64,000 nucleotides of DNA, from NCBI RefSeq assembly GCF_007859755.1, contig NZ_SJPF01000001.1, positions 1,104,082 through 1,168,081 on the forward strand, in the 5' to 3' direction. This stretch comes from Blastopirellula retiformator (GTDB taxonomy: Bacteria > Planctomycetota > Planctomycetia > Pirellulales > Pirellulaceae). The notes below the pieces were generated by a model that was not told the DNA's origin, did no database searches, and was given only the letters and a program-made list of their open reading frames with translations. The position numbers and the translations under genes are program-made. Below are positions 36,374 to 64,000 of this stretch, one piece after another; the first letter of the stretch is position 1; the number at the start of each line of letters is the position of its first letter.

Positions 36374-36528
36374 TAGCTGCCTGTTGAAAAATGCCCTCGT
36401 GGCATTTTCCAACCTCGCCAGGCTCAGAGCATAGCTCTTCGCGGCTCGCAAAATAACGACATACGTCGCTATTTTGGGATCGCATCCCTGCGATCCAGCA
36501 GCCCGTTGAGAAAATCAACGGACTGCTA
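36374..36528 (+). mobile_element. 155-bp TA-flanked hairpin-array element, copy 1
   Basis: It starts TAGCTGCCTGTTGAAAAATG and ends ATCAACGGACTGCTA. Five stem-loops follow one another: AAAATGCC/GGCATTTT, AGAGC/GCTCT, AAAATA-CGAC/GTCG-TATTTT, GGATCGCA/TGCGATCC and CAGCCCGTTGA/TCAACGGACTG. The termini are imperfect inverted repeats (TAGCxGxCxGTTGA). It lies 7 bases after the DUF971 stop and encodes nothing. Other copies are at 45563, 52244 and 62622. Confidence 0.85.
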
Positions 36529-36597
36529 GCAATATGGCGCCATGTTCTTGCGGCGTCTTCGCTGGATGAGCATGTCTTCGTGCTGGTCTGATCCTCA

Positions 36598-37248
36598 CTA
36601 AAACATCATCAGCTCACGCCATTCCAGCGCCGCCAAATCAGGCCGTCGCATCAGTTGCAGAAAGACCAGCACGCTGATCGAGAACGCGATCGTCAGCAGG
36701 ATGCCGCCGTAGGGACTGGGCGTCGTCGTCTCGCGCCGCAGTGCGCCGCCTAGGGCCAGCTCCAATCGTCGCCATGACAAGAAGTCTTGCCGACTGCCGA
36801 CCGAGTTGATCTGCACGTTCCGCATCGCCGACGATTCTTCCAGCACCAAGTGAATGCCGAGGGTTGGAAATAGGATCGCATCGCCCGACCAGCGGGCTTC
36901 CGCATCCAATTCATTCGCCACGCGGCGGAGCACCGGTTTCAGCTGATCGATCGACGAGTTGAAGACGACCAACCGCGGCTTTTCCATCAGCACCCAGAAG
37001 GTAACCGCCAGAAAGTAGAGCGACAGCATCAGCAACCAGATGTAAGGCCCAAACAGGGCGGCTGCATTGTCAGGCAGGAAGAGTTTCATCGGCCCGGCGA
37101 TCATCAAACCAACCACCGCCACGCCCAAGGCGTACGAATCTCGCCCCCCGGTGGTCAAAAAAGGACGCCGCGATAGGTTGATCGCCCCCAACAAAAACAT
37201 GTAGGCGGCCAGCGGGCACAACGCGATGCATAAGTGAAGTGGATTCAT
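36598..37248 (-). CDS. Membrane protein of unknown function
   Basis: 216 aa. Hydrophobic spans near 5-25, 40-58 and 63-87, and one near the C-terminus (GGILLTIAFSISVLVFLQL). Between them is a ~90-residue soluble part (LRRVANELDAEARWSGDAIL, LVLEESSAMRNVQINSVGSR). No family recognised. The ATG at 37248 sits directly ahead of the first span; the frame is open ~57 bases further upstream but adds only a polar leader. Confidence 0.68.
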   Translation of the reverse strand: MNPLHLCIALCPLAAYMFLLGAINLSRRPFLTTGGRDSYALGVAVVGLMIAGPMKLFLPDNAAALFGPYIWLLMLSLYFLAVTFWVLMEKPRLVVFNSSIDQLKPVLRRVANELDAEARWSGDAILFPTLGIHLVLEESSAMRNVQINSVGSRQDFLSWRRLELALGGALRRETTTPSPYGGILLTIAFSISVLVFLQLMRRPDLAALEWRELMMF

Positions 37249-37547
37249 TCCGCACTTTTCAGCCGAGGTTTCGGCGGAAGCCAACTCGGCCGCCGGGGGA
37301 AGCAAGCAAAAACTCGATTCTAAGCCCGATCGTCCGATTTGGCCACGACTTAGGCCGCGGAAGCAGTCCGATTATTCCGGCCATAGCGGTTACCGCCAGC
37401 GGTCGAACCTCTTTTCGGAACGGTAGTTGCGTCCGAAGCCCTTCCAATTTAAAATGCGAAATTCTCAAATAGGGCGGAGCTTGCTCTTCCTACCCAAGAG
37501 AAGACCGCGAACCGCCCCTGGGCGAAAGCGGTCTAAGAGATGCCTTA

Positions 37548-37631
37548 GCCGGAGTGGCGGAATTGGCAGACGCGCTGGATTCAAAATCCAGTTCTCGCAA
37601 GGGAGTGTGGGTTCGATTCCCACCTCCGGCA
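37548..37631 (+). tRNA. tRNA-Leu (anticodon CAA)
   Basis: 84-base class II tRNA. The acceptor GCCGGAG pairs with CTCCGGC; the anticodon stem CTGGA/TCCAG encloses TTCAAAA (anticodon CAA). There is a long variable arm (TTCTCGCAAGGGAGT region); T-stem GTGGG/CCCAC with loop TTCGATT. The discriminator is A and CCA is not encoded. It reads TTG codons. About 300 bases lie between the divergent membrane-protein gene and this tRNA, with no other gene. Confidence 0.96.
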
Positions 37632-37640
37632 CTAAGAATG

Positions 37641-37674
37641 AAAAAGGCCCGATGCATTTCGCATCGGGCCTTTT
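37641..37674. terminator. Bidirectional rho-independent terminator
   Basis: AAAAAGGCCCGATGC pairs with GCATCGGGCCTTTT around a 5-base loop. On the plus strand it ends tRNA-Leu; on the minus strand the A-run becomes TTTTT after the stem, so it also ends the thioredoxin-like gene whose stop is 23 bases away. Confidence 0.93.
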
Positions 37675-37696
37675 CTTGTTTGTCGATCTCGGCCAG

Positions 37697-38926
37697 TTAC
37701 TCGCCGGCGGTTTGGAAGAACGCGGTCATTTGCTTCACCGAGCGGTAGCCGGTGTAGCGGGCCGTTTCTTCGCCTGACGGATCAAGCAGGATACCGGTCG
37801 GATAGCCTGTGACTTTCAGCTTGTCGGCTAGGTCCCGGTGTTTGTCGCCGTCGACTTTAACGCAGACGACTCCCTCGGCCTCGACCGCGTTGACCACGTC
37901 TTGGGCGGTAAAGACGTAGGCGTCCATCTGCTTGCAGGGTAAGCACCAAGTGGTCTCAAACTTTACGAAACAAGGCTTGCCGGCATCAGCGGCCTTTTTG
38001 ATGGCGACTTCGCAGTCGGTTTCAAACGGCACCGGCTCTTTGGCTTGTTTGGCCATGCGATCGACGCGCATGAAGTCGCGATTCTCGATATCTTCTTGGC
38101 GAGTGATGCCGGGGTCGTGCGGCAGGATCTCGCCGGAGGAGCCATCGGTGCCGTTCATCCAAATGTGCCAGGCTTTTTCTCCACCCCAAGTGAACTCGCT
38201 CATCCGTCGCCAGATTGGCGGTTCGGCTTTCGCATCGTCCGAAACCAGGCAAATCGCCCACGAATCGTACTTGGCGATGATGCCGTCGTTGTTGGCGTCA
38301 GCGACCACCACCTGGTACTTCTGGTCATCAATCTTGATCTCGCCTTGCAGAAAGCCGGTGCGGGTAAAGCGGATCGCATCGGGGGTTTCCGCTTCGTCAG
38401 CGACAACGACCCAGAGCGAAACAGGATAGTCGACGAGCCCGTCCTCGCCCGCCGTATGACGAACGGGCAGCGTGACCTCGGTAAACGATGACCAGATCTT
38501 GCCGCGGAGGATGTTGGGCGTCGTGGTTGCTGGAGCCTTGTCGTTGAGCTTGCCGTCTTGATTGAGGTCGACTAGCAGCGTGTCATACGGCTTGCCCGCT
38601 TCACTGCGAGAAATGCAGATCAAGAGGCCCTCGCCACGCATTTCTTGCGGCCCGAGCTCAATGCGGCCGACCAGGTGATCGACGCCAGGCAGGCCTTCCT
38701 GATCGCCAGGGGTAAGCGCAACGGCGGCTCCTTTCGGAGTAAATCGAGGCGCTAGTGCTGACTTTGGCACGCCGGCAGAGAGCTGTAGAGGAAATTGTTC
38801 ACGCCCGGCGATGGCAGCATCTTTCTGGTCGCTGGCAGGGGGCGTTTCCGCCTGGGCAAAGCAAAGTCCAGTAGAAGTGAGAGCGACGGCAAGCAGCGCG
38901 CGCGCAGAGGATGGGACGATCGGCAT
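37697..38926 (-). CDS. Exported protein with C-terminal thioredoxin domain
   Basis: 409 aa. Signal peptide ARALLAVALTSTGLCFAQAE. Residues ~40-290 are a beta-rich region with repeated calcium-like DxNxDGxLND/DANNDGIIAKYD elements (LVDLNQDGKLND). The last ~105 residues are a thioredoxin fold with active site WCLPC (CxxC at 328-331), cis-proline VTGYPTGILLD and the closing GYRSVKQM. Probably a periplasmic thiol-disulfide protein. The ATG at 38926 gives the signal peptide; the frame is open further up as far as 39148, without signal-like sequence. Confidence 0.85.
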   Translation of the reverse strand: MPIVPSSARALLAVALTSTGLCFAQAETPPASDQKDAAIAGREQFPLQLSAGVPKSALAPRFTPKGAAVALTPGDQEGLPGVDHLVGRIELGPQEMRGEGLLICISRSEAGKPYDTLLVDLNQDGKLNDKAPATTTPNILRGKIWSSFTEVTLPVRHTAGEDGLVDYPVSLWVVVADEAETPDAIRFTRTGFLQGEIKIDDQKYQVVVADANNDGIIAKYDSWAICLVSDDAKAEPPIWRRMSEFTWGGEKAWHIWMNGTDGSSGEILPHDPGITRQEDIENRDFMRVDRMAKQAKEPVPFETDCEVAIKKAADAGKPCFVKFETTWCLPCKQMDAYVFTAQDVVNAVEAEGVVCVKVDGDKHRDLADKLKVTGYPTGILLDPSGEETARYTGYRSVKQMTAFFQTAGE

Positions 38927-39492
38927 GTTTGGCCTTTCAAAACCTACACTTGAAATTGGGAAAGCGAAGGCAAAGTGCAAACCCAAACCGTCGTCCCTGG
39001 GCGCCATCGACCAATCACGGAAACCGCAACCTGCCGAAATCGCGCAGCAGTTTAGGCCGCACTTCACAAGAGACCTTAACGTGGCAATCGCTGTGCCAAG
39101 CGGATCGGCTTTGGATGAAGTCGTCAGTTTTCCGCAAGGAAAGACCAATCTTCATTCCATGACTCGCAGATAGCGGTCTAGGGCGCCCATTGGCTGTGCA
39201 GAAGGTCATGCGTGAGTGATGAAAAAAGACGCAAGTATCCATGCAGGAAATAGGGCGAGAGTTTGTTTGGTGATTTTTGTTTAGTTTTCGATCTGCTTGG
39301 GGCATCTCTAACGCCACTTATTGGCGAGCCACGTATCGAGCTTTTCTTTTGCTCTCGCATCGGTTGGGACGATTTAAAAAGACTGTGATGATAGGGGCTT
39401 AGGGTGAGTTGGCGAGACCTCGGGGCCCACTCAAAGGGCAGGGCTGGCATGGTGTAATTCGATCTTGTCGGTCGACAGGCTATAATTCAGAC
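38927..39492. other. Intergenic region without a recognised gene
   Basis: About 560 bases between the divergent thioredoxin-like gene and the HNH cassette. Open frames on both strands here have unlikely composition and no ribosome site, so I assign no gene. It is A/T-richer than its surroundings around 39200-39300, and both flanking promoters should be within it; TATAAT at 39481-39486 is only 7 bases from the next ATG and so is not its promoter unless the mRNA is leaderless. Confidence 0.4.
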
Positions 39493-39756
39493 ATGAATCC
39501 AGCGACTGAAATCTATGACGATTCCATTCTTGCGAACCTTGATGGTGTGATCTCTCGATCAGCCGCCGAGGATATTCTTGCTCTAGGATTTTCTGCAGAG
39601 CAGAAAGAGCGGATGAGCCTGCTGGCCGCAAAGGCACGCTCGGGAGAATTGACGCAGCAAGAACGCGACGAAGCTGAGAGCTATGAACGAATCAGCAGCT
39701 TACTCGGAATCCTCCAGTCGCGAGCTCGGATTGCGATGACGCGGACTAGTTCATGA
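39493..39756 (+). CDS. Small protein paired with an HNH nuclease gene
   Basis: 87 aa, acidic and helical, no signal peptide. AAEDILALGFSAEQKERMSL, AKARSGELTQQERDEAESYE and LLGILQSRARIAM give it a two-helix character. I recall similar small proteins ahead of HNH genes in planctomycetes and cyanobacteria, but cannot name a family. Its stop overlaps the HNH start by 4 bases (ATGA), so the two are translated together. It could be a partner or an inhibitor of the nuclease (inference). Confidence 0.72.
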   Translation: MNPATEIYDDSILANLDGVISRSAAEDILALGFSAEQKERMSLLAAKARSGELTQQERDEAESYERISSLLGILQSRARIAMTRTSS

Positions 39757-40172
39757 CGATATCCGTTGCGCTGCGTCGCGCCATCTGGCAACGAGCGGAG
39801 AATCGTTGCGAGTATTGCCAGATGCCGCAAGACTTCGATCCCGTGACGTTCGAGATTGACCACGTCATTCCGGAGAAAATGAATGGCGCGACGGAACTGC
39901 AGAACCTTTGTTTAGCGTGCTTCAAATGCAACAATCACAAAGGCCCTAATATTGCTGCGATCGATCCTAAGACAAGTGAAAAGGCGTTTCTGTTTGACCC
40001 CCGCAGTCATAACTGGTTTGAACACTTTCGGTGGGATGGGCCGATTCTAAGAAGCGAAACTCCTGAGGGCCGGGCTACTATTGAGCTTCTTCAGGTCAAC
40101 GTCGGACATCGCGTCGCTCATCGGCGGCAACTCATCGTCGAAGGGGTTTTCCCGCCAGGGAATCGTGCCTAG
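39753..40172 (+). CDS. HNH endonuclease
   Basis: 139 aa. The HNH motif is complete: RCEYCQMP (C19, C22), FEIDHVIPEKMNG (D36-H37), LQNLCLACFKCNNHKG (N51, C56/C59, H62). The two CxxC pairs should hold a structural zinc and the H-N-H triad the catalytic metal. A stand-alone HNH of this size could be a restriction-type or homing-type nuclease or a defence effector. Second gene of a two-gene cassette with no methyltransferase beside it. Confidence 0.88.
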   Translation: MTISVALRRAIWQRAENRCEYCQMPQDFDPVTFEIDHVIPEKMNGATELQNLCLACFKCNNHKGPNIAAIDPKTSEKAFLFDPRSHNWFEHFRWDGPILRSETPEGRATIELLQVNVGHRVAHRRQLIVEGVFPPGNRA

Positions 40173-40234
40173 CTAGTTTTGTTTCGCGCTTCTAGCTTTG
40201 CGTCTTTTCTAAATACCACCCAATGGAGTACACC

Positions 40235-41263
40235 ATGAAAACTCGCCCCCTAGGAAAATCTGGCATCGAAGCTTCCGTCGTCGCGTTTGGCGCTTGGGCG
40301 ATTGGGGGTTGGACTTGGGGTGGGGCGGACGAGAAAGAGTCGATCGCCGCGATTCATGCGTTTCTCGATGCTGGCGGCAACTTGATTGATACGGCGCCCG
40401 TCTACGGATTTGGGGCGAGTGAGGAAGTGGTCGGCAAGGCGATCGCCGATCGACGCGATAAAGTGGTGTTGGCGACCAAGTGCTCGATGCGGTGGGATCT
40501 GAGCGACGAGCAGCGCAAACGGGCCAAGAAGCGATTTTCGACGACGCGGGAGAACGTCGACTGGACCGGTGAGAAGAGCGAGGAGAGTTTCGACGTCTAT
40601 ATCTACAACGGTCGCGACGGGATTCGCGAAGAAGTCGAACGAAGCCTGAAACGCCTGCAGACCGACGTGATCGATCTCTATCAAACGCATTGGCAGCTGG
40701 ACGCGACGCCAATTGAAGAGCGGATGGGTGCGCTTCAGGAGCTGAAACAGGAGGGAAAGATCCGCGCTATCGGCGTCTCGAACGCTTCGCCCGAGCAAAT
40801 GGAGGAGTATCGCAAATTTGGCCAGCTCGACTCCGATCAGGAGAAGTACTCGATGCTCGACCGTGGGATGGAGTTGGCCAATTTGGAGAAGTGTGCCAGC
40901 GACGACATCGCGTTTCTCGCCTATAGCCCGCTAGCCCAAGGTTTGTTGACCGGCAAGATCACGCCCGAGCGTGAGTATGGGGAAGGGGATCAACGACGGT
41001 ACAAAGATCGTTTCAAACCCGACAACGTGCGTCAGGTGCTGGCAATGCTCGAGCCGATGCAGGCAATCGCCGAGCGGCATCAGATCAGCTTGGCGCAATT
41101 GACGATGGCCTGGACGCTCTCTCAGCCTGGCTGTTCGCATGTGCTATGCGGCGCTCGGACGCCGCAGCAAGCGATTGATAACGCCGGCGCCGGCGATGTG
41201 CAGTTGACCGCGGATGAACTGGCCGTAATCACGGCGGCGGTCCATCGCTACGAGGGAGTTTAG
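40235..41263 (+). CDS. Aldo/keto reductase
   Basis: 342 aa. LGKSGIEASVVAFGAWAIGG opens the barrel; LIDTAPVYGFGASEEVVGKA carries catalytic D and Y; VVLATKC the lysine and LYQTHWQLD the histidine. LAYSPLAQGLLTGKI and VLCGARTPQQAIDNA are the NADPH-site elements. Its natural substrate is unknown. The ATG at 40235 has GGAG 7 bases upstream and is preferred over the in-frame ATG at 40223. It has no close co-directional neighbour (289-base gap to phoD). Confidence 0.92.
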   Translation: MKTRPLGKSGIEASVVAFGAWAIGGWTWGGADEKESIAAIHAFLDAGGNLIDTAPVYGFGASEEVVGKAIADRRDKVVLATKCSMRWDLSDEQRKRAKKRFSTTRENVDWTGEKSEESFDVYIYNGRDGIREEVERSLKRLQTDVIDLYQTHWQLDATPIEERMGALQELKQEGKIRAIGVSNASPEQMEEYRKFGQLDSDQEKYSMLDRGMELANLEKCASDDIAFLAYSPLAQGLLTGKITPEREYGEGDQRRYKDRFKPDNVRQVLAMLEPMQAIAERHQISLAQLTMAWTLSQPGCSHVLCGARTPQQAIDNAGAGDVQLTADELAVITAAVHRYEGV

Positions 41264-41552
41264 TAGGAGTTCTTCAGAACTTGTTGCGGTCTGCTGAATG
41301 AATCGATTTCGAGTCGACTCGTCCCAATAGCGAAGTTGTTGCGCAAATCGGCGAGTCTGCTGCGCGTCAGAGATAGTATTGGGCATGATTTCCCGTAAAA
41401 CGGAGCCTGCGGTTCAACTTCATCATTCGTTAACTTGATCCGTCAAAGCTCGATTTACTAGACTTCGAGTGTCAACAGCGGGTCAACTAAGTTGATTCAA
41501 TATCTACTTCCCGCCCGCTCAATCTCGCCCACCGCTGCCGGAGATCTGCCCG

Positions 41553-43142
41553 ATGTGCGCCCAAAAGATTCATGTCCCTGGTCGAACCTGGAACCGTCGT
41601 CAGGTCTTGGCGATGGGAGGCTCGCTGCTCGCGGCCTGGCCGACCTTGGGGGGCGTCGCTTCGGCCGCTTTTCGTCGCAACGTCGGCTTGGGCGACTATC
41701 CGTTTTCGCTCGGCGTCGCCTCAGGCGATCCAAGCTCGGACGGTTTCGTTTTGTGGACGCGTCTGGCGCCCAAGCCGCTAGAGCATGACGGCGGCATGCC
41801 GAACGAGAACGTCGAAGTTCGCTGGACTGTCTGCCATGACGAAGCGATGACCAAGGTCGCCGCGCAAGGGACCGCGATCGCGACGCCCGACATGGGGCAC
41901 TCGGTCCATGTCGAAGTGCCGGGGCTCGACCCGAACCGTTGGTACTTTTATCAGTTCGCCGCAGCCGGCGAGATCAGTCCGAAGGGACGCGCTCGGACCG
42001 CTCCGAACGCCAATGACATGCTGTCGCAACTCAAGTTCGCGTTCGCCTCGTGTCAGCACTTCGAATCGGGGCACTATACCGCGTACCAGCACATGACGCG
42101 GGAAGGATTCGACGTCGTCGCACACTTGGGCGACTACATCTACGAGCGGGAAGGGAAAGGTGGCAAGACGCGGATGCACGCCGGGCCGTACATTGACAGC
42201 CTGGGCGACTACCGCGTCCGTCACGCCCAGTACAAGACCGACCCACATCTGCAGGCGGCGCATGCGATGTGCCCTTGGCTGGTGACCTGGGACGATCACG
42301 AATTTGACAACAACTACGCCAACGAGATTCCGCAACATCCCAACGCCAAGCGGAACCAAAACGGCGAATACATGAAGCGACGTGCTCGCGCCTACAAAGC
42401 GTATTACGAGAACATGCCGCTCCGCATGGCGCAATTGCCGACTGGTCCTGACATGCAGCTTTATCGCAGCGTCAAGTTCGGTCGTCTGGTCGACTTCGAC
42501 GTGCTCGATACGCGGCAGTATCGGACCGATCAGCCGTGCGGCGATGGTCGCAAAGAGCCGAATGACGAAGTCTACCTGCCGGAAGCGACGATCCTAGGCG
42601 ATCAGCAGGAAAACTGGTTGACCAAACAGTTCGAGACTTCGGACAGCGTTTGGAACGTGCTGGCGCAGCAAGTGATGATGGGCCGCGTCGATCGCGACCC
42701 GAGCAAAAAGGTCGGCTATTCGATGGATCAATGGCCCGGCTACGAAGTGAACCGTCTGCGGATGCTGAAGTTCTTCGAACAACACCCCGACAAGAACCCG
42801 GTCGTCTTGACCGGCGACATCCACTGCAATTGGGCGAACGACTTGCAGGTCAATTGCGAAGACGCCGATTCGGCGGCTGTGGCGGTCGAATTTGTCGGCA
42901 CGTCGATCAGCTCGGGCGGCAATGGCGCCGAACAGCGCGATGATACCGCGATGGTATTGGCGCAAAATCCGTTCGTCAAATTCAATAACTACGAACGGGG
43001 CTACGTCGCTTGCGAAGTCACGCCGCAAACCTGGACGACCCACTATCGCACGGTGCCGTTCGTCACCAAGCCAGATGCACCGCTCAACACGCGAGCCAGC
43101 TTCGTTGTCGAAGCAGGTAAGTCGGGTCTGAATCCGGCGTAA
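41553..43142 (+). CDS. phoD: PhoD-family alkaline phosphatase/phosphodiesterase, Tat-exported
   Basis: 529 aa. A twin-arginine signal is present (WNRRQVLAMGGSLLAAW, R15-R16). PhoD features follow: YPFSLGVASGDPSSDGFVLW at the N-terminal Fn3-like domain, FAFASCQHFESGHYTAYQHM, HLGDYIYEREGKG, VTWDDHEFDNNYANE and VLTGDIHCNWAND, which supply the calcium/iron site. It hydrolyses phosphomonoesters or diesters outside the cytoplasm, typically under phosphate limitation. No Pho box was identified in the 289-base upstream gap. A terminator follows. Confidence 0.94.
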   Translation: MCAQKIHVPGRTWNRRQVLAMGGSLLAAWPTLGGVASAAFRRNVGLGDYPFSLGVASGDPSSDGFVLWTRLAPKPLEHDGGMPNENVEVRWTVCHDEAMTKVAAQGTAIATPDMGHSVHVEVPGLDPNRWYFYQFAAAGEISPKGRARTAPNANDMLSQLKFAFASCQHFESGHYTAYQHMTREGFDVVAHLGDYIYEREGKGGKTRMHAGPYIDSLGDYRVRHAQYKTDPHLQAAHAMCPWLVTWDDHEFDNNYANEIPQHPNAKRNQNGEYMKRRARAYKAYYENMPLRMAQLPTGPDMQLYRSVKFGRLVDFDVLDTRQYRTDQPCGDGRKEPNDEVYLPEATILGDQQENWLTKQFETSDSVWNVLAQQVMMGRVDRDPSKKVGYSMDQWPGYEVNRLRMLKFFEQHPDKNPVVLTGDIHCNWANDLQVNCEDADSAAVAVEFVGTSISSGGNGAEQRDDTAMVLAQNPFVKFNNYERGYVACEVTPQTWTTHYRTVPFVTKPDAPLNTRASFVVEAGKSGLNPA

Positions 43143-43175
43143 CGCGATCGCGAACAAAGAACCACGGTGGACTTG

Positions 43176-43203
43176 CGCCTCGGTCGAAAGACCGGGGCGT
43201 TTT
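43176..43203 (+). terminator. Rho-independent terminator after phoD
   Basis: CGCCTCGGTC pairs with GACCGGGGCG (one T-G) around a GAAA tetraloop, followed by TTTT. 33 bases after the phoD stop. Confidence 0.85.
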
Positions 43204-43229
43204 CTGTTGGGAGTGACGACCTATCGTAA

Positions 43230-43353
43230 CCCGAGGCGCGAGCCGAGGGAGTGCGATCATCGCTGTGATCAGAGCTTATTTCTTGTTCGAGGCTCAAAGC
43301 TGGTAGAAGCCTTATTGTCGCTGGCGAACGCTTTCCCTCGGCTTGCGCCTCGG
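43230..43353. repeat. Inverted-repeat element with CCGAGGCGC arms
   Basis: The left arm CCGAGGCGCGAGCCGAGGG (43231-43249) is matched by CCCTCGGCTTGCGCCTCGG (43335-43353) with one mismatch, about 85 bases apart. The inside has a further hairpin (GATCATCGCTGTGATC). There are no clear TA borders on both sides, so it may be an old element copy or a different class from the TA-flanked ones. It lies between convergent phoD and corA. Confidence 0.6.
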
Positions 43354-43367
43354 ATTCGTGATTCCGT

Positions 43368-44450: not shown

Positions 44451-44656
44451 AGGATGGCTGGAAAGTTCCCCGGTGCAGAAAGAGACGCCGCATTGGCAGG
44501 ATATGGTCAATTGCTAAGATAAACGGCCGATCGTTACACGGGGCGCGATAAATTTCTAGTCGAATATTCAACCCAGCGGCCCAAATCGTCGATTTCTCGT
44601 CCTTCAATGGCGGCATCCCTAGGCAACTGTACCCCAACCTCGGTGATTAGCAGACT

Positions 44657-45565
44657 ATGTCGATGGATATCGTAATCCTCTCCCGGAAAGCCTCTCTGTA
44701 TTCGACCCGTCGCCTGCGCGAAGCGGCCGTAGAGCGAGGGCATGACGTCCGTGTGGTCGATTATCTCCGCTGCTACATGGACATCACGTCGCATCGTCCC
44801 CGGGTCTTATACCAGGGGGAAGAACTAGTTCCCGACGCGATTATTCCCCGAATTGGCGCCAGCTATACTTTCTATGGGACCGCGGTCGTTCGCCAGTTTG
44901 AAATGATGGGCGTCTTCACCGTCAACGAGTCGCAGGCGATCAATCGCTCGCGAGACAAACTCCGCTCGACCCAGTTGCTAGCACGCGACGGGGTTGGCTT
45001 GCCGGTTACCGGCTTCGCCCACTCAACCAAGGATATCGATGGCCTGATCTCGATCGCCGGCGGTTCGCCCTGCGTCGTCAAGCTGATCGAAGGGACCCAA
45101 GGTGTCGGCGTGATCCTGGCCGAAACCAAGAAGGCGGCCCAGGCCGTTATCGAGGCGTTCCGCGGTCTGGATGCGAACATCCTGGTTCAGGAGTTCATCA
45201 AAGAGGCAGGCGGCAGCGATATTCGCTGCATCGTCGTCGGCAATCGGGTGATCGCCACGATGAAACGCCAGGCCGCGCCGGGCGAGTTCCGCTCGAACCT
45301 GCATCGCGGCGGCTATGCCGACAAGATCAAGATTACGCCGGAAGAGCGAACCACCGCCAAGCGAGCCGCCAAGACGATGGGGCTGAACGTGGCGGGCGTC
45401 GACATCCTTCGCTCGAACCATGGCCCGGTGGTGATGGAAGTCAATTCTTCGCCTGGGCTGGAAGGGATCGAAGGGGCGACCGAGGTCGACGTGGCAGGTA
45501 AAGTGATCGAATTTATCGAACAGCACGCCAAGCCCGGCCGCCAACGCGATAAAGGGAAGGGCTAG
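44657..45565 (+). CDS. rimK: RimK-family ATP-grasp glutamate ligase
   Basis: 302 aa. [40 protein letters not shown] and PVTGFAHST match RimK; the ATP-grasp core has [39 protein letters not shown] and [20 protein letters not shown]. RimK adds glutamates to the C-terminus of ribosomal protein S6 in E. coli; relatives modify other substrates. Its TAG stop uses the TA where a 155-bp element is inserted, and the next gene is a RimB-like peptidase. Divergent from corA (206-base gap). Confidence 0.94.
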
Positions 45566-45717
45566 CTGCCTGTTGAAAAATGCCATCGTGGCATTTTCCA
45601 ACCTCGCCAGGCTCAGAGCATAGCTCTTCGCGGCTTGCAAAATAACGACTTACGTCGCTATTTTGGGATCGCATCCATGCGATCACGCAGTCCGTCGAGA
45701 AAATCAACGGACTGCTA
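45563..45717 (+). mobile_element. 155-bp TA-flanked hairpin-array element, copy 2
   Basis: Same orientation and length as copy 1. It starts in the rimK stop codon (TA at 45563-45564) and ends TA at 45716-45717. Excision with one TA leaves rimK ending in TAG and reduces the gap to the RimB-like gene from 188 to 35 bases. The last hairpin carries the CAGTCCGTCGA form, shared with copy 3. Confidence 0.88.
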
Positions 45718-45753
45718 GGAAGTCCACCTGAATACGTACCAGAGACACTGCCA

Positions 45754-51802: not shown

Positions 51803-51910
51803 GTTGGGTTTACATGATCTTCATGTTTCGTTCATATGCGAAGAAAATTGGCGTTCGTCGTCGGTTTGCTTGAACCGAACCAGATCGCTTCCGTAAGGAG
51901 GGATGGAGAA

Positions 51911-52246
51911 ATGCCTCTCACCTTGGAACGGAAGAGAAACAAGATGTTTGCCGAAGCTCTTCGCGGTCTGCTGAGTCGCGTTAAGAAGGGTCCGGCCAAG
52001 AGCACGCCGACCCAGGAAGCGAAACCGCAGAAGCCGCCTGAAAAGGGAACCTACTTCATTAAGTTCGATTCTCACTCGCCAGAAACGGGGCCGTTTACCA
52101 AATCGGAACTGCGTGCCCTGGCCGAGGATCGGCTGATTCACAAGCGTTCGCTGATTCGCTCGGGAAAGACCGACTGGTATCAGATTTCAAATGTCAAAGG
52201 GCTGGGGCTACCGCTCATCGAGCCGCCAGCGGACAAGATCCACTAA
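51911..52246 (+). CDS. GYF_2/DUF4339-like domain protein
   Basis: 111 aa. The C-terminal part FIKFDSHSPETGPFTKSELR, LAEDRLIHKRSLIRSGKTDW and YQISNVKGL follows the GYF_2 pattern (G-PhTxxELxxLa--g-I...W). The N-terminal ~45 residues are basic and linker-like. GYF_2 domains are adaptor modules, often fused to membrane segments; here it stands alone. ATG at 51911 has AAGGAGG 9 bases upstream. Its TAA stop overlaps the TA of element copy 3. Confidence 0.78.
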   Translation: MPLTLERKRNKMFAEALRGLLSRVKKGPAKSTPTQEAKPQKPPEKGTYFIKFDSHSPETGPFTKSELRALAEDRLIHKRSLIRSGKTDWYQISNVKGLGLPLIEPPADKIH

Positions 52247-52398
52247 CAGTCCGTTGATTTTCTCGACGGACTGCGTGATCGCACGGATGCGATCCCAAAA
52301 TAACGACGTAAGTCGTTATTTTGCGAGCCGCGAAGAGCTACGCTCTGAGCCTGGCGAGGTTGGAAAATGCCACGATGGCATTTTTCAACAGGCAGCTA
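52244..52398 (-). mobile_element. 155-bp TA-flanked hairpin-array element, copy 3 (reverse)
   Basis: Starts TAACAGTCCGTTGATTTTCT and ends TTTTTCAACAGGCAGCTA, the reverse orientation of copies 1 and 2. The left TA is part of the GYF-like gene's TAA stop; excision with one TA leaves TAA again. In this copy the AAAATAACGAC/GTCGTTATTTT hairpin is perfectly paired. Confidence 0.88.
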
Positions 52399-55650: not shown

Positions 55651-55682
55651 TGAAGGTTGTAGCGATCATATCGGCGAATTGG

Positions 55683-56201: not shown

Positions 56202-56261
56202 CGTAACACCTACATGGAGAGGGAAGCGAACGAAACTGAGATCAACGGAACTCCAAGTTCG

Positions 56262-57350
56262 TTACGGCAGAGTCACCGTCTCACCGCCAGCCTTGCTACC
56301 GAGAGCGCCCCAGACGCCATAAGGGCTGGGACCGCTGGTCGACTCGGCGGACGTTAAATTGCCGGTATCGATTGTGTTGGGGATAAACTGAACCGAAGCG
56401 TCTCCCATTGAGACCAAGACGCCGCCTGGATGGTAGCTGCTGGCGCTGAATAGCCCCCAATTGTCTCCCCAGTTGTCGTTGGCGCACGACGGGCTGTTCG
56501 GCGGAAGGACCGTGTTAACGCCTGTAAATGCCGGCATACCGTCAAACCACTGAACGCCGGCGGCGCGATCGGTTTGCACCGATTGCCCCGTCAAATATTT
56601 GCCGTTACTCGCGGTTGTCAGGCAGTTGGTCGGGGAGGTGTTGAGGCCGCTCACGTTATTGGCGAAAAAGCCGCGGATGTTGCGCGTATCGCCGCTGACG
56701 CCAAACGCCCGCTCGGCCAGCATGATGGTGTTGGTCGTGCCGTCGATAATCGACGCCATGTTGGTGGTCGACTTCTTGTCGAGTTCGCCACGGGCAAACA
56801 TGCCGCGCGGGTTTCCAATGGAGTGACTATTGGCGATCGAGTCTCCCATGCTGGTCGCATAGTTGCGGGGGCCCCATGCGCGATTCCAGATATTTGCCGG
56901 CGTCGATGGCTGCGAGGGGCAGACGAAAGCGGGAATGGTCGCTTGATAGGGTGGGTAAACTCGTTCGCGAATTGGACCGAACGGAAGAATATCGATCCCT
57001 CCGTAAGTTCCTGGCGCCGAGAGAATGTCGAAAAGGGCCGACTGCTCCAAGAAGGGCATCAGGAACATGAAGCCGCTACTCCGGTTCTCATTCCCCTGAG
57101 GATCGGTCGAACGCGTACCGCCGTTGTCGTAGGTAAGAGCCGGGAAGCTGAGGAAGGTGTCGTGGTGGTTATGCAGCGCAAGGCCAATCTGCTTCAAATT
57201 GTTTGTGCATTGCATACGTCGAGCCGCTTCGCGGGCTTGTTGTACCGCCGGAAGTAATAGGGCGATCAACACGCCGATGATGGCGATCACGACCAACAAT
57301 TCGACCAAGGTGAAACCTCTGCGACTATGCGTCGAGTAAGAAACGCTCAT
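56262..57350 (-). CDS. DUF1559 pseudopilin-like protein
   Basis: 362 aa, the longest DUF1559 here. [20 protein letters not shown], then [40 protein letters not shown] and the C-terminal [20 protein letters not shown], ending [12 protein letters not shown]. It leads the lipoprotein gene at 55683 and the pair ends in a terminator. The C-terminal GGE-V pattern resembles the gene at 12316 (GGETAQLP) and the pseudogene at 4950 (GGEVVDN), unlike the tandem pair at 22-24 kb. Confidence 0.92.
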
Positions 57351-57776
57351 AGCAATCTACCTTGAGTAAAAAAGAATGAGGAAGATCGAAGCCGTTGCAA
57401 ATGTGTTGTGGTGGCCGAATTGGCGAACCCAGAAATGGTGTCCGCGCGCAACGCAACGTTCTCCACAACCGAGGCTCAATTTGCGACGTTACGGTTGGTT
57501 GCGTTGGAAATTGAAATCGGAGGCCAAAATGGCGGGATGTGCGGCTGGGAGGCGCTCAACCGAAATAAGGTGATCTTGTAAAAACAAAGCATCACCTCAA
57601 ATCGACGCATTTAGTCAGGTAGTACCGTTGTAATAAAGAGCGAATTGAACAGCAAGAAAAAGGAACTATCAAAAAAGATAATTTAAGTGCCGCGCGAAGA
57701 ATCGCCTATTTGGTGCAAGTAGAGGTCATGTTTGTCTGTGCAGCTCGTCCCGGGAGAACCGACGAGCGCAGCAAAA
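57351..57776 (-). other. Intergenic leader/promoter region of the DUF1559-lipoprotein operon
   Basis: About 425 bases with no gene. It is markedly A/T-rich at 57600-57690 (for example AAAAAGATAATTTAAG), unlike flanking coding DNA, and should contain the promoter for the DUF1559 gene on the minus strand. Confidence 0.4.
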
Positions 57777-57803
57777 CGGCCGCTGGAGAGTCTCCAGCGG
57801 CCG
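57777..57803 (-). terminator. Rho-independent terminator of the isomerase gene
   Basis: CGGCCGCTGGAG pairs perfectly with CTCCAGCGGCCG around a 3-base loop; on the minus strand TTTT follows. 33 bases after the stop at 57837. Confidence 0.9.
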
Positions 57804-57836
57804 CAAGAACTCAATAGTGTAGGAGGCTAATTTCCC

Positions 57837-58841
57837 TTATTGCTTCTCTTTATCGAAGGCCGCGTCGAAGGCGACGTTGCTGGGAGCGAAGTCCATGTCG
57901 CGGACGAACTGGCACGATTCTTCCGCGCCATGCATCCGGTCCATGCCCGAGTCTTCCCATTCGATCGACAGCGGGCCTGCATAGCCGATGTCGTTGAGGG
58001 CGCGGATGATTTCTTCAAAGTTTACGCCGCCGTGGCCGGGGCTGCGGAAGTTCCAACCGCGGCGGTGATCGCCAAAGTCGATGTGGCTGCCCAAGATGCC
58101 GGTCTTGCCGTTGAGCGTGACGATTGCGTCCTTGATGTGGACGTTGTAGATGCGGTCCGGGAAGGCGCGGATGAACTCGACCGGATCGACCCCTTGCCAC
58201 AGCAGGTGGCTCGGATCGAAGTTGAAGCCGAATTCTTCACGACCGCCGACCGCGTCCAGAGCCCGCTCGGCCGAGTAAAGATCGAACGCGATTTCGGTCG
58301 GGTGAACTTCCAGGGCGAACTTGACGCCACATTCGCCAAAGACGTCGAGAATCGGGTTCCAGCGATCGGCGAACAGTTGGAAACCGTCATCGATCATCTT
58401 GGGCTGAACCGGCGGAAAGCTGTAGAGCAGGTGCCAGATGCTGCTGCCGGTAAAGCCGTTGACCACGTCGACGCCAAACTTCTGGGCGGCCCGGGCGGTC
58501 GCTTTCATCTCGTCGGCGGCGCGAGCGTTGACGCCGGCCGGGTCGCCATCGCCCCAGACATACGGCGGCAGGATCGACTTGTGACGTTCGTCAATGATGT
58601 CGCAAACCGCCTGACCGACCAGGTGGGCGCTAATCGCCAGGCACTGCAGGTCATACTTCTCAAGCTGTTCCCGTTTCTTTTCGCAGTAGTCAGCTTCGGC
58701 GTTCGCCTTGTCGACTTCGAAGTGGTCGCCCCAACAAGCGAGCTCCAGGCCGTCGAAACCGAAGTCCCGCATCGCCTTGGCCATCTCGTCCAGTTTCAAG
58801 TCGGCCCATTGTCCGGTGAACATCATAACGGGGCGTGCCAT
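57837..58841 (-). CDS. Sugar phosphate isomerase/epimerase (AP endonuclease 2-like TIM barrel)
   Basis: 334 aa. [69 protein letters not shown] and [20 protein letters not shown], with PLSIEWED, give the metal-binding E/D/H/E set of the xylose-isomerase-like barrel. Likely a sugar isomerase or epimerase, often tied to inositol or polyol use in planctomycetes. ATG at 58841 has GAGGAG 7 bases upstream. The frame stays open to 59072 with a lipobox-like [11 protein letters not shown], which I judge coincidental. Confidence 0.9.
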
Positions 58842-59113
58842 GTGGAGCTCCTCTTTGGCGTCGTAGTAAGAGTTGGAAGGGGGGTGGCGAATTGCGTGCG
58901 ACGCAATCTCTGTCGCAGCAGGGCGGGCCGCACGAAACAGGTATTTTGCCCCTTCCCAGGCCGGCGTGCAACCTGTCGCCGCGATAGCGCACAGCAGCGC
59001 CAAGAAACGGGTGACAAGAAAAGGGAAGAGGACGAGTCCATTGGTTGTCGCCTGGTGGACTCGCCCTCTCACGCACCCAAAGATGGTGGGGCCTGGTTTG
59101 CTAGTGGCAGGCC

Positions 59114-60646
59114 TTACGCGGTTTCGGCATGATCGACGATCATTTCGTCGCCCCCTTCCAGAAAGCTGGCCAAGCCGCGGCTGCGGTAAGGCTGCTGAAG
59201 TTTACGAACCGCTTTCGATTCGATCTGGCGAACGCGTTCTCGGGTGACCGAGAAGATCTTGCCGACTTCTTCCAGCGTGTAGGAGTAGCCGTCGGTCAGA
59301 CCGTAGCGAAGACGGATGATCTCACGTTCGCGGTGGTTGAGCGCCTCGAGCACTTCGCACAGGCGATCCTTCAGGGCCTGCTGATGCGTTTCGTACAGCG
59401 GGTCCTCGTCGCGGTGATCTTCCAGGAACTCGCCGAAGAAGCTGTCATCGTGATCGCCGACCGGCTGGTCGAGCGACAACGGATTGCGGTTCATCTTCAA
59501 GATGACCCGGGCATCGTCCAGCGACAGACCGGCCCGTTCGGCGACTTCTTCCGGGGTCGGATCGCGGCCCAGCTCTTGCAGCAGATCGCGGGTCACTGCC
59601 CGCACCTTGCCCATCGTATCGATCATATGAACCGGCACGCGAATCGTGCGGCTTTGATCGGCGATGGCGCGGGTGATCGCCTGACGAATCCACCACGTGG
59701 CGTAGGTCGAGAACTTGTAGCCCCGTTGGTACTCGAACTTGTCGACCGCCCGCATCAGGCCGGTGTTCCCTTCCTGGATCAGGTCGAGGAAGCTGAGCCC
59801 GCGGTTGCGATATTTCTTGGCGATCGAGACGACCAGACGCAAGTTGCCGGCCGACAGCAGACGCTTGGCGGCGTCGTACTCTTCCTGGAACTCTTCAATA
59901 CGAAGCAAGCGGCGACGGAGCAGCGTCGGGCTTTCCAGCGTCACCTTCATCAGGTAACGGAGTTCGGTCCGCAGTTCGCCAACCGTTTGGCCGCCGCGGG
60001 AGACGCCCGCCTTGGTCGCTTCGTCAATCTGCACGAGCAGGGCGTCCATGCGGTGCGAGATTTCTCGCAATTTGGTCAGGAATTGGACGATCTTGTTGGT
60101 ACGTAGATTGAGTTCTTCGATCAGCCGGACCGCTTTCGCGCGGCGACGGATCATCGCTTTCACGGCGGCACACCGTTTGGCGAGCGGCGTCGACTTGCTG
60201 ATCACGACTTTGAAGTCGGCGACGTTGCCGCTGAGCAACTTGCGGAGCGTGACCAGGTTGGGCCCGATCCGCCGCATGATGTTCTTTTTCTCTTTGGCGT
60301 TGGTAACCGACACTTCGACCGTGCGATCGAGACGGAGCTTGCCGTCGCGAACTTGTTCGAGCAGCTGGACCGATTGTTCCAGGATGAAGTCGTTCGAGAT
60401 GAAAGCATGGCGGAAGCGGGTTCGCCAGAACTCAATTTGGCGAGCGGCGTTGATTTCTTCCTGACGCGACAGCATCGGGATCTCGCCCATCTGCATCAGG
60501 TACATGCGGACCGGGTCGTCAATCTGACTGTCGTCATTGGCGTCCTCGAACATCTCGTCTTGTTCTTCGGTCGATTGAGCCGAAAAGCGACGGGCTTCAT
60601 CTTGTTCGAAGTCATCGTTATCGAAAGCGTCATGCGCGTGAACCAT
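59114..60646 (-). CDS. rpoD: Principal-type sigma-70 RNA polymerase sigma factor
   Basis: 510 aa. Acidic N-terminus, then region 1.2 ([20 protein letters not shown]), a ~200-residue non-conserved region, region 2 ([60 protein letters not shown]), region 3 ([20 protein letters not shown]) and region 4 ([20 protein letters not shown]). Region 2.4/4.2 look standard, so it should read TTGACA/TATAAT promoters. The ATG at 60646 has GAGGAG 10 bases upstream. No primase gene is adjacent, unlike the common rpsU-dnaG-rpoD layout. Confidence 0.94.
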
Positions 60647-60764
60647 TAGGTGCGTTCTCCTCAAGAGTTCTGACTGGGCGACCGCGAGTCAGCGATCAGG
60701 CGACGATCCACATAGATGCAGCGTCCGTGCCGAATCCATACCGAGCGGTCGTCAATCGACCTAA

Positions 60765-60947
60765 ATGCATTCCCTCAAACGCTTTAAGAAAATGATGCGA
60801 CGCCTCCTGGGCGATTTTCATGTTGCCGGAGAGCATCATCCGGCGGGATTTGGTGATAACGATCAACGACAGCAAGCCTCAGATCAGCCGGGGGGAAGGG
60901 GGAACCAAACCGTAATAACTGAAAAAGACGCTATGAAGCGTTGTTGA
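60765..60947 (+). pseudogene. Possible relic of an lpxK-like gene end
   Basis: The 540 bases between the sigma factor and the enoyl-CoA hydratase have no intact gene. A 60-codon frame ends QTVITEKDAMKRC, strongly like the TEKDAVK motif near the end of tetraacyldisaccharide 4'-kinase (LpxK), with an HH pair ~29 residues earlier (GEHHPAGFG) where LpxK has DHH/DHQ. The middle (DNDQRQQASDQPGGRGN) looks degenerate. Either a decayed LpxK C-terminus or chance. The A/T-rich remainder to 61188 probably carries the next gene's promoter. Confidence 0.25.
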
Positions 60948-61188
60948 ATAGGTCTTCTCGAGCCGTGGCAAAGTTCCGTAAAACCAGGGGAAACTTCGAT
61001 GTTGATTGGTCTCAACATGTTCGATTCTTCACTTATCTCCCCTGCGACGTTAATCCCTGGATCGGCGATTCTTATCGTAAGTCTTTGCTGCCATGAGACT
61101 TGTCGCGTTTCTTCGGTTTTCGCTATGATGAAAACTTAGGTAGAAATCCAACTGTCCGTCATAACTAACCGAGCTAGACGTGATCAAA

Positions 61189-61977
61189 ATGAGCGAACCG
61201 ATCGTCGTCGTGAAGAAACATGCCCCGCTCGGGACGATCATTTTGAATCGCCCCGAGAAACGAAACGCCCTGTCGCGGGTCATGGTCGAAGAGCTGGAGC
61301 AGGCCTTTCGCGACCTGCACGCCGAGAAGAGCGTGCGGGCGATTGTGCTGACCGGCGCCGGAACCGCTTTTTGTGCCGGTCTCGACTTGGCCGAGATGCA
61401 CGCCGCCACCGGCGAAGAGGACTCGTTTGATCGTTGGCGCGACGACGTGGTCCGGCTCCGCGATCTGTACGAAATGATGCTGCGGTTTCCCAAGCCGATC
61501 ATCGCGGCGGTCAATGGTCCGGCGGTCGCCGGAGGGGCCGGTTTGGTGTTGGCGGCTGATTTCGCCATCGCCTCGTCCGAAGCGACGTTTGGCTTTCCGG
61601 AGCCGCGCCGCGGCGTGATCGCTGGGATCTGCGCCCCGCTGTTGACGTTTCGCATCGGCGGTTCGCATGCGGCCCGGTTGCTGCTGTTGGCCGAGACGAT
61701 CACCGCCCAGCGAGCCGAGGCGATCGGGATCTTTCAAGAGCTGATCCCGCACGAGAAGCTATGGGCCCGGGGAATGGAGATTGCCAATGAAATCGCCTTG
61801 TCGGCCGAAGAAGCGATATCGCTGACCAAGCGAATGCTGAACGAAACGATCGGCGAAACGCTGGAAACGTACCTCTCGGCCGGAGCCGCCGCCAGCGCGG
61901 CCAGCCGCACTACCGAAGCCGCCGCCGAAGGAATGAAGGCGTTCCTAGAAAAGAGAGAGCCAAACTGGCCGACGTAG
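61189..61977 (+). CDS. Enoyl-CoA hydratase/isomerase family protein
   Basis: 262 aa. TIILNRPEKRNALSRVMVEE, LTGAGTAFCAGLDLAEM (oxyanion hole) and VNGPAVAGGAGLVLAADFAI followed by FGFPEPRRGVIAG are the crotonase-fold signatures. E in PEPRRG is the usual catalytic position. It could act in fatty acid or amino-acid degradation; no partner genes are close. ATG at 61189 is preferred over GTG at 61180, which lies three codons earlier. Confidence 0.92.
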   Translation: MSEPIVVVKKHAPLGTIILNRPEKRNALSRVMVEELEQAFRDLHAEKSVRAIVLTGAGTAFCAGLDLAEMHAATGEEDSFDRWRDDVVRLRDLYEMMLRFPKPIIAAVNGPAVAGGAGLVLAADFAIASSEATFGFPEPRRGVIAGICAPLLTFRIGGSHAARLLLLAETITAQRAEAIGIFQELIPHEKLWARGMEIANEIALSAEEAISLTKRMLNETIGETLETYLSAGAAASAASRTTEAAAEGMKAFLEKREPNWPT

Positions 61978-62101
61978 GCCAAGTTGGCGGTAAGTGCCTG
62001 GCGCCATCTTCGCCGGATGAGTATGTCTTTGCACTATCAGAACGTTTTGAAGCCATGCTTACGCGACGAAGACGCCGTGAAAGCATGCCGCCATTAATCC
62101 T

Positions 62102-62368
62102 CTACGCGAACAACCAGGCCGCCGTTCCGGCGCCGATCGTCGCGGCGCCGAGCAGGATCATCCCGCTGCAGCCGACCCCAGTTGGTTTATCGAGTTCGCC
62201 GTCGGCGACCATTTTCGCTTCGATCTGTTCGACCAACTCTTTCGACTCTTTCAAGCCTCGGCCGGTCTCTTCACGCAGCATCTTGATGGCGGCGATCTTC
62301 TGCCCTTCTTTGAGCAGGCGTTTGATTTCGTCGAGTTGGCCATCCGGCGATTCATTTTCTACGTCCAT
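62102..62368 (-). CDS. Small membrane protein with an L7/L12 C-terminal-like motif
   Basis: 88 aa. QLDEIKRLLKEGQKIAAIKM then LREETGRGLKESKELVEQIE resembles the C-terminal domain of ribosomal protein L7/L12 (KIxAIKxxREaTGLGLKEAKdLVE), used outside ribosomes in many small proteins. It ends with one hydrophobic segment (GMILLGAATIGAGTAAWLFA) that could anchor it in the membrane. Start ATG 62368; AGGAG is 12 bases upstream, slightly far. Function unknown. Confidence 0.78.
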   Translation of the reverse strand: MDVENESPDGQLDEIKRLLKEGQKIAAIKMLREETGRGLKESKELVEQIEAKMVADGELDKPTGVGCSGMILLGAATIGAGTAAWLFA

Positions 62369-62602
62369 GGAAGCGACTTTCTCCTGGCGACTTGCAAGCG
62401 GGAACACGGTAACGAAGTGTAGCCGATATCACGCTCACGCCAAAATGGTTGGGCGACTCTAGTTCGACTAGGGATCGGTTGGCACATTCTTGGCGATCTT
62501 GCGGCGATCTCCGCTTGTGAACGGATCGCCGGATCCTGAGAATTCGACGAATACGGCAGTGCACGCCGCCTTGCCAAAGTCTATACCCAGGACGCTTCTC
62601 CC

Positions 62603-64000
62603 ATGTCTGACGCTCCCCGCCTAACAGTCCGTTGATTTTCTCAACGGGCTGCTGGATCGCAGGGATGCGATCCCAAAATAGCGACGTAAGTCGTTATTTT
62701 GGGATCCGCGAAGAGCTATGCTCTGAGCCTGGCGAGGTTGGAAAATGCCACGAGGGCATTTTTCAACAGGCAGCTAACCTTCTTCCAGTGGACCGTCTGT
62801 GTGATCGCGGCGATTGGTTTCGCCTTCGACATCTACGAGCTACTGATGTTGCCGCTGATCGTTCGGTCGGCGCTACAAGAGCTGATCGGCGCCGCCCCGG
62901 GTTCCGACGCGTTCAATGTTTTTGGTTGGGTTCCTCTTCTTTGTGCCGGCCATGGTCGGCGGGGTATTTGGACTAATCGGCGGCTATCTGACCGACCTGC
63001 TGGGGCGGCGGCGGGTGTTGGTCGCCAGTATCTTGCTGTACGCAGTCTCGGCGTTTGCATCCGGTTTCAGCACCGCGGTTTACATGTTGCTGGTGCTCCG
63101 CTGCTTCACGTTCATCGGCGTCTGCGTCGAGTTCGTTGCGGCGGTCGTCTGGCTGGCCGAGCTGTTCCCCGACCCGAAACGGCGCGAAGCGGTCCTTGGT
63201 TTCCCCCAAGCTTTCTCCTCGATCGGCGGGATGCTGGTAACCGGCGCCAACATGCTGGCGATTCACTATGGATCGCACCTGCCGGAAATCATGGGGGGAC
63301 ACGAAGCTTGGCGATACACGTTGATCTCCGGCGTGATCCCGGCGATTCCGCTGCTGGTGATTCGGCCGTTCTTGCCCGAGTCGCCAGCCTGGGCCGAAGA
63401 GAAAGCGGCCGGCACGCTGCAAAGTCCAAGCATCGCACAGCTCTTTTCGCCAGCGCTGCGACGCACGACGATCGTCACTACGATCATGTTTGCCTGCTCG
63501 TATGGAATCGCCTTTGGTGCGCTGCAGCAGACGCCGCGCATTGTGCCGCGCCTGCCGCAGGTGAAAGCGCAGGTCGAAGGGATGTCGGTTCCGGAGCAGA
63601 AGAAGACGGAACAAGCGGTCGCCGCCGAAGTGAACGGCGTGCAGGAAATTGGGGGTCTGGTGGGACGTTTCGTTTTGGCGGTGTTGGCGCTGGTGGTGGT
63701 CAGCCGCGTGACGCTGATCCGGATCTTCCTGTTTCCGGCATTGGTTTTCGTGCCGCTCCTTTCCTTTTATCCGGCTCGTTACAGCCTCGATCTCCTGCAT
63801 TACGGCATCTTCTTCGCCGGCGTGCTGACGGTCGGGCAGTTTAGCTTCTGGGGGAACTACCTGACGCGGGTCTATCCGCTCCACTTGCGAGGGACCGGCG
63901 AAAGCTTTGCCGCCAACATCGGGGGCCGGATGTTCGGCACTTCGTTCGCCATGGTGACCTCGCTGTTGGCGAGCGTCATGCCAGACAAATCGACCGCCTT
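62603..64000 (+). pseudogene. MFS transporter pseudogene interrupted by element copy 4 and a frameshift
   Basis: ATG at 62603 starts SDAPRL, then a 155-bp element enters at codon 7 and brings TGA at 62633. Removing the element with one TA restores an uninterrupted reading, PRLTFFQWTVCVIAAIGFAF and DIYELLMLPLIV. A second lesion follows: near 62916-62930 (a run of five Ts) the frame must change to continue as FLFFVPAMVGGVFGLIGGYL, TDLLGRRRVLVASILLYAV and LRGTGESFAANIGGRMFGTS. That frame stays open to the window edge. The family is MFS (sugar-porter/AAHS-like by eye), with motif A GGYLTDLLGRRR. Confidence 0.88.
62622..62776 (-). mobile_element. 155-bp TA-flanked hairpin-array element, copy 4 (reverse)
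   Basis: TAACAGTCCGTTGATTTTCT to TTTTTCAACAGGCAGCTA, in the orientation of copy 3. It is inserted within codon CTA of the MFS gene, with TA at 62622-62623 and 62775-62776. The net insertion is 153 bp, a multiple of three, but carries an in-frame stop. Its last hairpin has the CAGCCCGTTGA form, like copy 1. Confidence 0.9.

Follow-up and report, generated by a model that had tools for sequence, protein, structure and literature searches.

Bacterial miniature inverted-repeat transposable elements (MITEs) are usually seen as leftovers of insertion sequences (IS) in which only the ends are constrained. Among them, NEMIS/Correia, ERIC and RUP elements are short, intergenic and foldable, with terminal repeats and structured transcripts, and are thought to be mobilised in trans. 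Here we describe a 155-bp element that occurs four times in a 64,000-nucleotide stretch of the Blastopirellula retiformator genome (contig NZ_SJPF01000001.1, positions 1,104,082 to 1,168,081 of the forward strand; hereafter the window) and that is constrained in its interior as well, its ends alone being common to an IS. It differs from NEMIS/Correia, ERIC and RUP in carrying a five-hairpin array that covaries across several families and in having a single-copy homologue in a tRNA array.

The element compares most directly with the IS1182 family (e.g., ISPse1 and IS1272), whose transposases are of the DUF772 + DDE_Tnp_1_6 type and in which ISPse1 points to a 4-bp duplication; the end motif CAGCCCGTTGA with NTAN borders is the counterpart found here. 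ISPse1 is entered as 1653 bp, 16/16 and 4 in the tabulated part of PMC3281130, the last figure being read as a 4-bp duplication. Unlike these IS, the 155-bp element contains no transposase and its interior is unrelated. IS1272 is described in a section of PMC5678879 as replacing inverted repeats at its target, whereas the 155-bp element shows no hairpin preference there. What is secure in our account is that the family is an IS1182-like MITE. It is also highly likely that the element is a 151-bp MITE plus a 4-bp duplication, moved in trans by an IS1182-like DDE transposase, with hairpins that do not come from the IS and are probably under selection.

A sequence-only reading of the window had proposed four 155-bp copies, two in each orientation, with few substitutions, five consecutive hairpins, terminal inverted repeats and two subtypes. 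The copies and their parts are as follows.

36374..36528, + strand: copy 1, subtype A, target-site duplications CTAG/CTAG
36373..36376, no strand: left target-site duplication CTAG of copy 1
36526..36529, no strand: right target-site duplication CTAG of copy 1
36377..36387, + strand: left terminal inverted repeat CTGCCTGTTGA of copy 1, a motif of the kind seen at IS1182-like ends
36515..36525, - strand: right terminal inverted repeat of copy 1, CAGTCCGTTGA when read on the - strand
36384..36412, + strand: hairpin 1 of copy 1, GTTG + AAAATGCC stem; the insertion site of a guest IS4-family element in other copies
36426..36438, + strand: hairpin 2 of copy 1, AGAGC stem
36449..36476, + strand: hairpin 3 of copy 1, CAAAATA + CGAC stem; the sole helix without a two-sided change in the six-genome alignment
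36477..36496, + strand: hairpin 4 of copy 1, GGATCGCA stem
36497..36527, + strand: hairpin 5 of copy 1, the right terminal repeat with a mirrored copy of itself
45563..45717, + strand: copy 2, subtype B, target-site duplication CTAG at 45562-45565; absent in congeners G001-G003
52244..52398, - strand: copy 3, subtype B, target-site duplication CTAA (+ strand) at 52243-52246; absent in G001-G003
62622..62776, - strand: copy 4, subtype A, target-site duplication CTAA (+ strand); absent in G001 and G002

All four copies lie where they had been placed, and pairwise matches among them range from 93 to 97%. Folding predicts five hairpins in copy 1, with a DNA fold of -43.6 kcal/mol against -19.8 ± 3.0 for shuffled sequences (z -7.95; 0/200 shuffles as good) and an RNA fold at z -6.7 (likewise 0/200). 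Inverted ends are present, 11 bp long with the consensus CWGNCNGTTGA. The positions that separate copies 1 and 4 from copies 2 and 3 are few and are located near hairpins 4 and 5. A sample of 23 copies divides likewise: columns 124, 125 and 130 of its alignment part it 10 to 13, and column 135 parts it 11 to 12. This sample was drawn without regard to resemblance to copy 1 and comprises the four window copies together with the 19 that exceed 150 bits in 400 kb of another contig, where a few fragments also occur.

The junctions show what is duplicated on insertion. Four adjacent positions are the same at the left and right junctions in 33, 33, 34 and 32 of 34 rows, and just outside these positions agreement falls to the background level of 10/34 on either side (rows: 30 best-hit copies plus the four window copies, i.e., 33 distinct copies with copy 1 present twice). 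Identical 4-mers flank 30 of the 34 rows, or 29 of the 33 distinct copies, and 22 of the 23 full-length sampled copies. The duplication is therefore 4 bp and the element proper 151 bp. It has the form NTAN, mostly YTAR (Y = C/T, R = A/G); CTAG, TTAG and CTAA are commonest, and single cases in the 23-copy sample include GTAG, CTAT, ATAA and TAAG. The sequence-only reading had taken the duplication to be TA and had assigned the family to IS630/Tc1-mariner. A TA does stand at nearly every junction (33 or 34 of 34 rows). The neighbouring bases also match between left and right, the one before it in 33 rows and the one after it in 32; the whole 4-mer is identical in the 22 sampled copies just mentioned, and the ends carry the motif of IS1182-like elements. 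A 4-bp duplication excludes a TA-only IS630/Tc1 element, and both parts of that assignment are set aside here; an IS630/Tc1-mariner MITE is an extremely improbable account of this family.

The four window copies belong to a large population, as had been supposed. With three mismatches or fewer allowed, the 6.2-Mb genome contains 315 left ends (158 forward, 157 reverse; 0 for a backwards-pattern control), a density of about one per 20 kb, half that of the window. A DNA search with copy 1 gave at least 41 matches in the same genome; 41 is a lower bound since 40 of 377 candidates were scored. The 23 sampled copies lie 2 to 11 bases away from their consensus. Three congeners, G001, G002 and G003, hold 2, 7 and 5 DNA matches and 4, 6 and 6 covariance-model matches, so that the contrast between 315 ends and a handful of matches in each of them makes the family a good system for recent amplification in planctomycetes.

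The sites of copies 2-4 were compared with these congeners using a 19.5-kb window query, which leaves copy 1 outside. Apart from the copies, the neighbourhood is intact in the congeners. At the copy-2 site they have 32-35 bases where B. retiformator has about 185. At the copy-3 site, two G002 matches overlap by 4 bases and G001 and G003 are shorter by about 168 bases; a query of the joined copy-3 flanks aligns through a single CTAA in G002, with no element. The copy-4 site is shorter by about 140 bases in G001 and G002, and in G003 it is unresolved among the matches listed. Constant length, a TA border and empty sites in relatives had been named beforehand as marks of mobility, and all three are seen: 22 of the 23 sampled copies above 150 bits measure exactly 155 bp with both TAs included, and copies 2-4 are absent from congeners. 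Copy number, junctions and empty sites thus agree on a mobile, non-autonomous, TA-bordered miniature element. An ancestral regulatory element that does not move could draw on the conservation of the hairpins across genomes. The empty congener sites, the 4-bp duplications and the excess of ends over the three congeners leave that explanation with practically no probability, and for window copies 2-4 the empty sites rule it out.

We then looked for a partner transposase. IS701 duplications are YTAR. IS701 is also credited with 4-bp duplications in a passage of PMC2266710; as an IS701-type candidate, PF13546 gave 0 matches in the B. retiformator genome. Among the 23 PF01609 transposase matches of this genome there was no IS with the ends of the 155-bp element, a guest IS4-family element aside. 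PF13751 gave two matches, which led to an IS1182-like relict (L073/L111) that is 5'-truncated and terminates in CTAG + CAGCCCGTTGA. At L057 and L060, one unpaired end-like match each was found near a transposase. Searching 57 genomes of the order with the relict protein gave matches in 13. One of them, G047, carries six intact copies that are 99-100% identical; its IS (L124:1222-2720) is 1499 bp long, encodes a 476-aa open reading frame (ORF) and has the ends CAGCCCGTTGAAAAATGCC and CAGCCCGTTGATCTAAGC. Flanking 4-mers are identical in five of the six copies, the sixth (L133) having CTAA and TTAA.

When bacterial genomes were scanned with an alignment of five transposases, 218 relatives were found and 80 loci, mostly planctomycete, were kept; two genomes supply 24 of the 80, so these are not independent. 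Both ends, defined as 1350-1560 bp apart with at most one mismatch per end, are present in 56 of these IS1182-like loci; 53 have NTAN on both sides and 36 identical 4-mers. The reversed motif gave 0/80 and the reverse complement 1/80, without NTAN. One relative (L205) has the same two ends and the same length as a locus (L115) of the order relative G033. Full-length IS1182-like elements thus carry ends and duplications such as those of the 155-bp element. From this correspondence, we infer that an IS1182-like transposase did the moving in B. retiformator. A transposase with DUF772 and DDE_Tnp_1/DDE_Tnp_1_6 domains would act in trans, binding the 11-bp ends, excising the element and inserting it at YTAR with a 4-bp stagger; the five hairpins are no part of the IS.

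Two further transposase loci of the same genome (G000) were noted. An intact IS1182-family transposase at L071 (C4:8513) scores 333.9 bits against a cut-off of 270 and has a 155-bp copy just upstream; no matching ends were seen around it. At L072 (C1:747220), a DDE_Tnp_1 transposase with a 553-aa open frame lies between inverted repeats with CTAG on both sides, and may represent a further element that inserts at 4-bp CTAG sites, with ends of a different kind.

The guest mentioned above is a 1.55-kb IS whose 426-aa transposase scores 215.2 bits against NF033592 (IS4; cut-off 115) and bears a YREK signature as read from its sequence. It lies inside hairpin 1 at L067 (G000 C1:1633266), L069 (C7:97505), L070 (C2:143581), where the right part of the host 155-bp element is cut off, and L077 (C1:918096). 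At L067 and L069, the ends of the 155-bp unit flank the transposase, both composites have a 4-bp duplication, and a 13-bp direct repeat stands at the junction, as if the unit were an internal-deletion derivative of the larger element. The IS is inserted in the opposite orientation at L077, it occurs at L068 at a site without any 155-bp element, and it is bounded by ends of its own, CAATACYGTTCGGCACGCC, with a separate duplication that measures 9 to 13 bp according to where the end is placed (ends and duplications of IS4 subgroups are treated in part of PMC2266710). The orientation at L077 and the element-free site L068 mark the IS4-family element as a guest and rule it out as parent through deletion at the 13-bp repeat; derivation from it is scarcely credible. 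At L076 the 155-bp element stands on one flank of the guest only, as after recombination. The guest behaves as if the stem-loop of hairpin 1 were its insertion target.

The 155-bp element itself inserts more often between genes than its target motif would predict: 15 of 23 sites are intergenic as against 40% of YTAR (p = 0.012; gene calls are crude and ORF-based). Hairpins are not preferred at the target: the mean stem is 4.55 at 47 sites, compared with 4.59 for 403 YTAR sites between genes (p = 0.60), and the comparison of fold energy gives p = 0.39. The copy-3 site, which lies at a hairpin foot, is thus not typical. The duplication of copy 2 supplies the TAG stop of a RimK-like gene (44657-45565), and that of copy 3 is the stop codon of an ORF (51836-52246); with the duplication doubling as stop codon, the upstream protein is left intact in both cases. 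An excess of stop-codon insertions is not significant (6 of 15 intergenic sites vs 23% of intergenic YTAR, p = 0.11).

REPs are not known to carry a 4-bp duplication or DDE-type terminal repeats. In its hairpins, high copy number and non-autonomous nature, the 155-bp element resembles REPINs and REP palindromes (PMC3116915, PMC8266576). Together with the intergenic bias, these traits would suit an element of the REPIN or IS200/IS605 kind that a Y1/HUH transposase (RAYT) mobilises in single-stranded form, and such a mechanism would account for the hairpins. The 4-bp duplications, not expected of elements of that kind, and terminal inverted repeats common to IS of a DDE transposase make such a route very improbable.

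The interior is conserved in a manner not expected of an IS leftover. In an alignment of 21 copies from six genomes (45 pairs, 500 shuffles), two-sided changes occur in 11 pairs against 7.0 ± 1.1 in shuffles, cells with a two-sided change number 59 against 17.9, and the covariation score is 0.185 against 0.087 (each 0/500); sliding the partner gives 0-3 two-sided pairs. In the copies of B. retiformator, with subtypes pooled, variation is scarcer at paired positions (46/2116) than at unpaired ones (68/1311). The earlier remark that such an array is less typical of IS630/Tc1-mariner MITEs is correct. Hairpin pairing is conserved by compensatory changes across the six genomes, so the hairpins are probably kept by selection. 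Perhaps the fold persists because, as a transcript or a single strand, it protects adjacent genes or is bound by a host factor.

Of 196 genomes of the order screened with a covariance model, at up to 15 matches scored per genome, 38 contain the array, and they represent 23 of 102 genera. Eight families (f1, f2, f4, f7, f10, f14, f19, f20) have matches at E < 1e-15, and in seven of the eight, own family aside, at least one genome has several copies. In family f8 the array has shorter relatives, about 127 bp long, with several hairpins and ends such as CTGTCCGTGGA, some with CTAG, CTAA or TTAG borders (L275, L277, L278, L282), at up to 44 matches per genome at E <= 0.01 (44 in G145). Rfam 15 gave 0 matches at E <= 1 over copy 1 and, apart from tRNA, 0 gathering-score matches in the window; the array in L274 or L276 was uncovered at E <= 0.5 among the matches listed. 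Titles and abstract openings of the open-access papers searched yielded no description of this element. The Rhodopirellula-1 motif is tabulated in PMC2864571 as another candidate structure of Planctomycetes and Proteobacteria, and is marked there as ambiguous as an RNA.

A homologue of a different standing was found in g38, a related genus of the same family. G094, G110, G122 and G204 have one model match each, between tRNA-Val(TAC) and tRNA-Asp(GTC) on the strand of the tRNAs, in the order Gln-Trp-Val-array-Asp-Leu (in two of the genomes ARAGORN labels Val as Cys). When the tRNA array served as a DNA query, the model matched 2 of the 30 loci fetched, those of G094 and a fifth genome, G055; the 28 other fetched loci, not all of them whole arrays, had no match, and the linked copy was seen in g38 only. 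Within g38, G086 has a rearranged tRNA array without the homologue, and G118 and G171 gave no covariance-model match (their own tRNA arrays were not read). Terminal repeats are not recognisable at the linked copies; end-like remnants with three mismatches near the right edge of three of the five could be due to chance. Stem sequences differ among the five copies and pairing is kept: two-sided changes affect 11 of 38 pairs against 4.9 ± 1.4, with a score of 0.255 against 0.113 (each 0/500), a result that rests on five related sequences. A single copy in a tRNA array together with compensatory changes points to a host function there, and a host role for the tRNA-linked copies is plausible. The homologue lets a mobile form of the structure be set beside one that apparently does not move, so that what the fold of a MITE is for becomes open to direct test.

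Conceivably, though we regard it as doubtful, the five hairpins form a structured RNA, hitherto undescribed, that this order has in two states: mobile between IS1182-like ends at up to about 300 copies, and domesticated in the tRNA operon as a single copy between tRNA-Val and tRNA-Asp, where selection on the fold maintains it. If so, a bacterial MITE would be a vehicle that spreads functional non-coding RNA, or a source of it. The opposite direction is capture, in which the array began as a host RNA of the tRNA operon and acquired IS1182-like ends later. Capture would fit the single copy on the same strand with the same neighbours in five g38 species, the lack of recognisable terminal repeats, and pairing conserved without other copies in those genomes; set against this are strong matches in eight families, multi-copy in seven, with the tRNA-linked copy confined to one genus, and the fewer steps that domestication needs. 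Because multi-copy forms are widespread and the linked form is known from one genus, domestication is favoured, and capture seems unlikely.

Several observations weigh against transposition by an IS1182-like enzyme of an element whose hairpins are under selection. On the transposase side, the B. retiformator assembly (97.3% complete) has no intact IS1182-like element of this subgroup, holding one 5'-truncated copy and one fragment, and 24 of the 80 kept loci lack recognised paired ends. IS1182 is the best-scoring NCBIfam name, but with 195.5 bits for the G047 transposase and 163.3 for the relict it stays below the curated cut-off of 270, and we therefore call these elements IS1182-like. The 155-bp element and the IS loci have only their ends in common, about 22 bp at 91% (G047 left end) or 32 bp at 81%, and the hairpin array was found in 0 of 97 IS1182-like loci at E < 0.1; the best matches there reach E 0.25, with seven loci at 0.73 that match the end hairpin only. 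With only the ends in common and the array in none of the 97 loci, descent from the IS by deletion is not established. On the side of the hairpins, both covariation tests use a structure derived from the same alignment, and their shuffles ignore relatedness. Further pair types do not exceed shuffles in the six genomes (29 vs 29.5), and in the tRNA-linked copies they number 15 against 12.2 (35/500). Counts of G-U wobbles against A-C mismatches (15 v 18, 7 v 9 and, in the B. retiformator copies, 9 v 15) do not favour RNA over single-stranded DNA; given this lack of strand preference, selection may act on single-stranded DNA or on an RNA read from one strand or the other.

Other features of the genome were noted in passing. 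The window encodes paralogous DUF1559 (PF07596) proteins with an N-terminal methylation motif at 12316-13236, 22357-23346, 23515-24513 and 56262-57350, all on the - strand, and the DUF1559 region at 57122-57325 has very many matching places in congeners among the matches listed. A 49-bp near-perfect palindrome at L106:1984-2032 (G000 C4:293883-293931) consists of two left ends back to back, with TTAG on the left and CTAG on the right, and can be read as a solo hairpin-1 relic or a minimal element.

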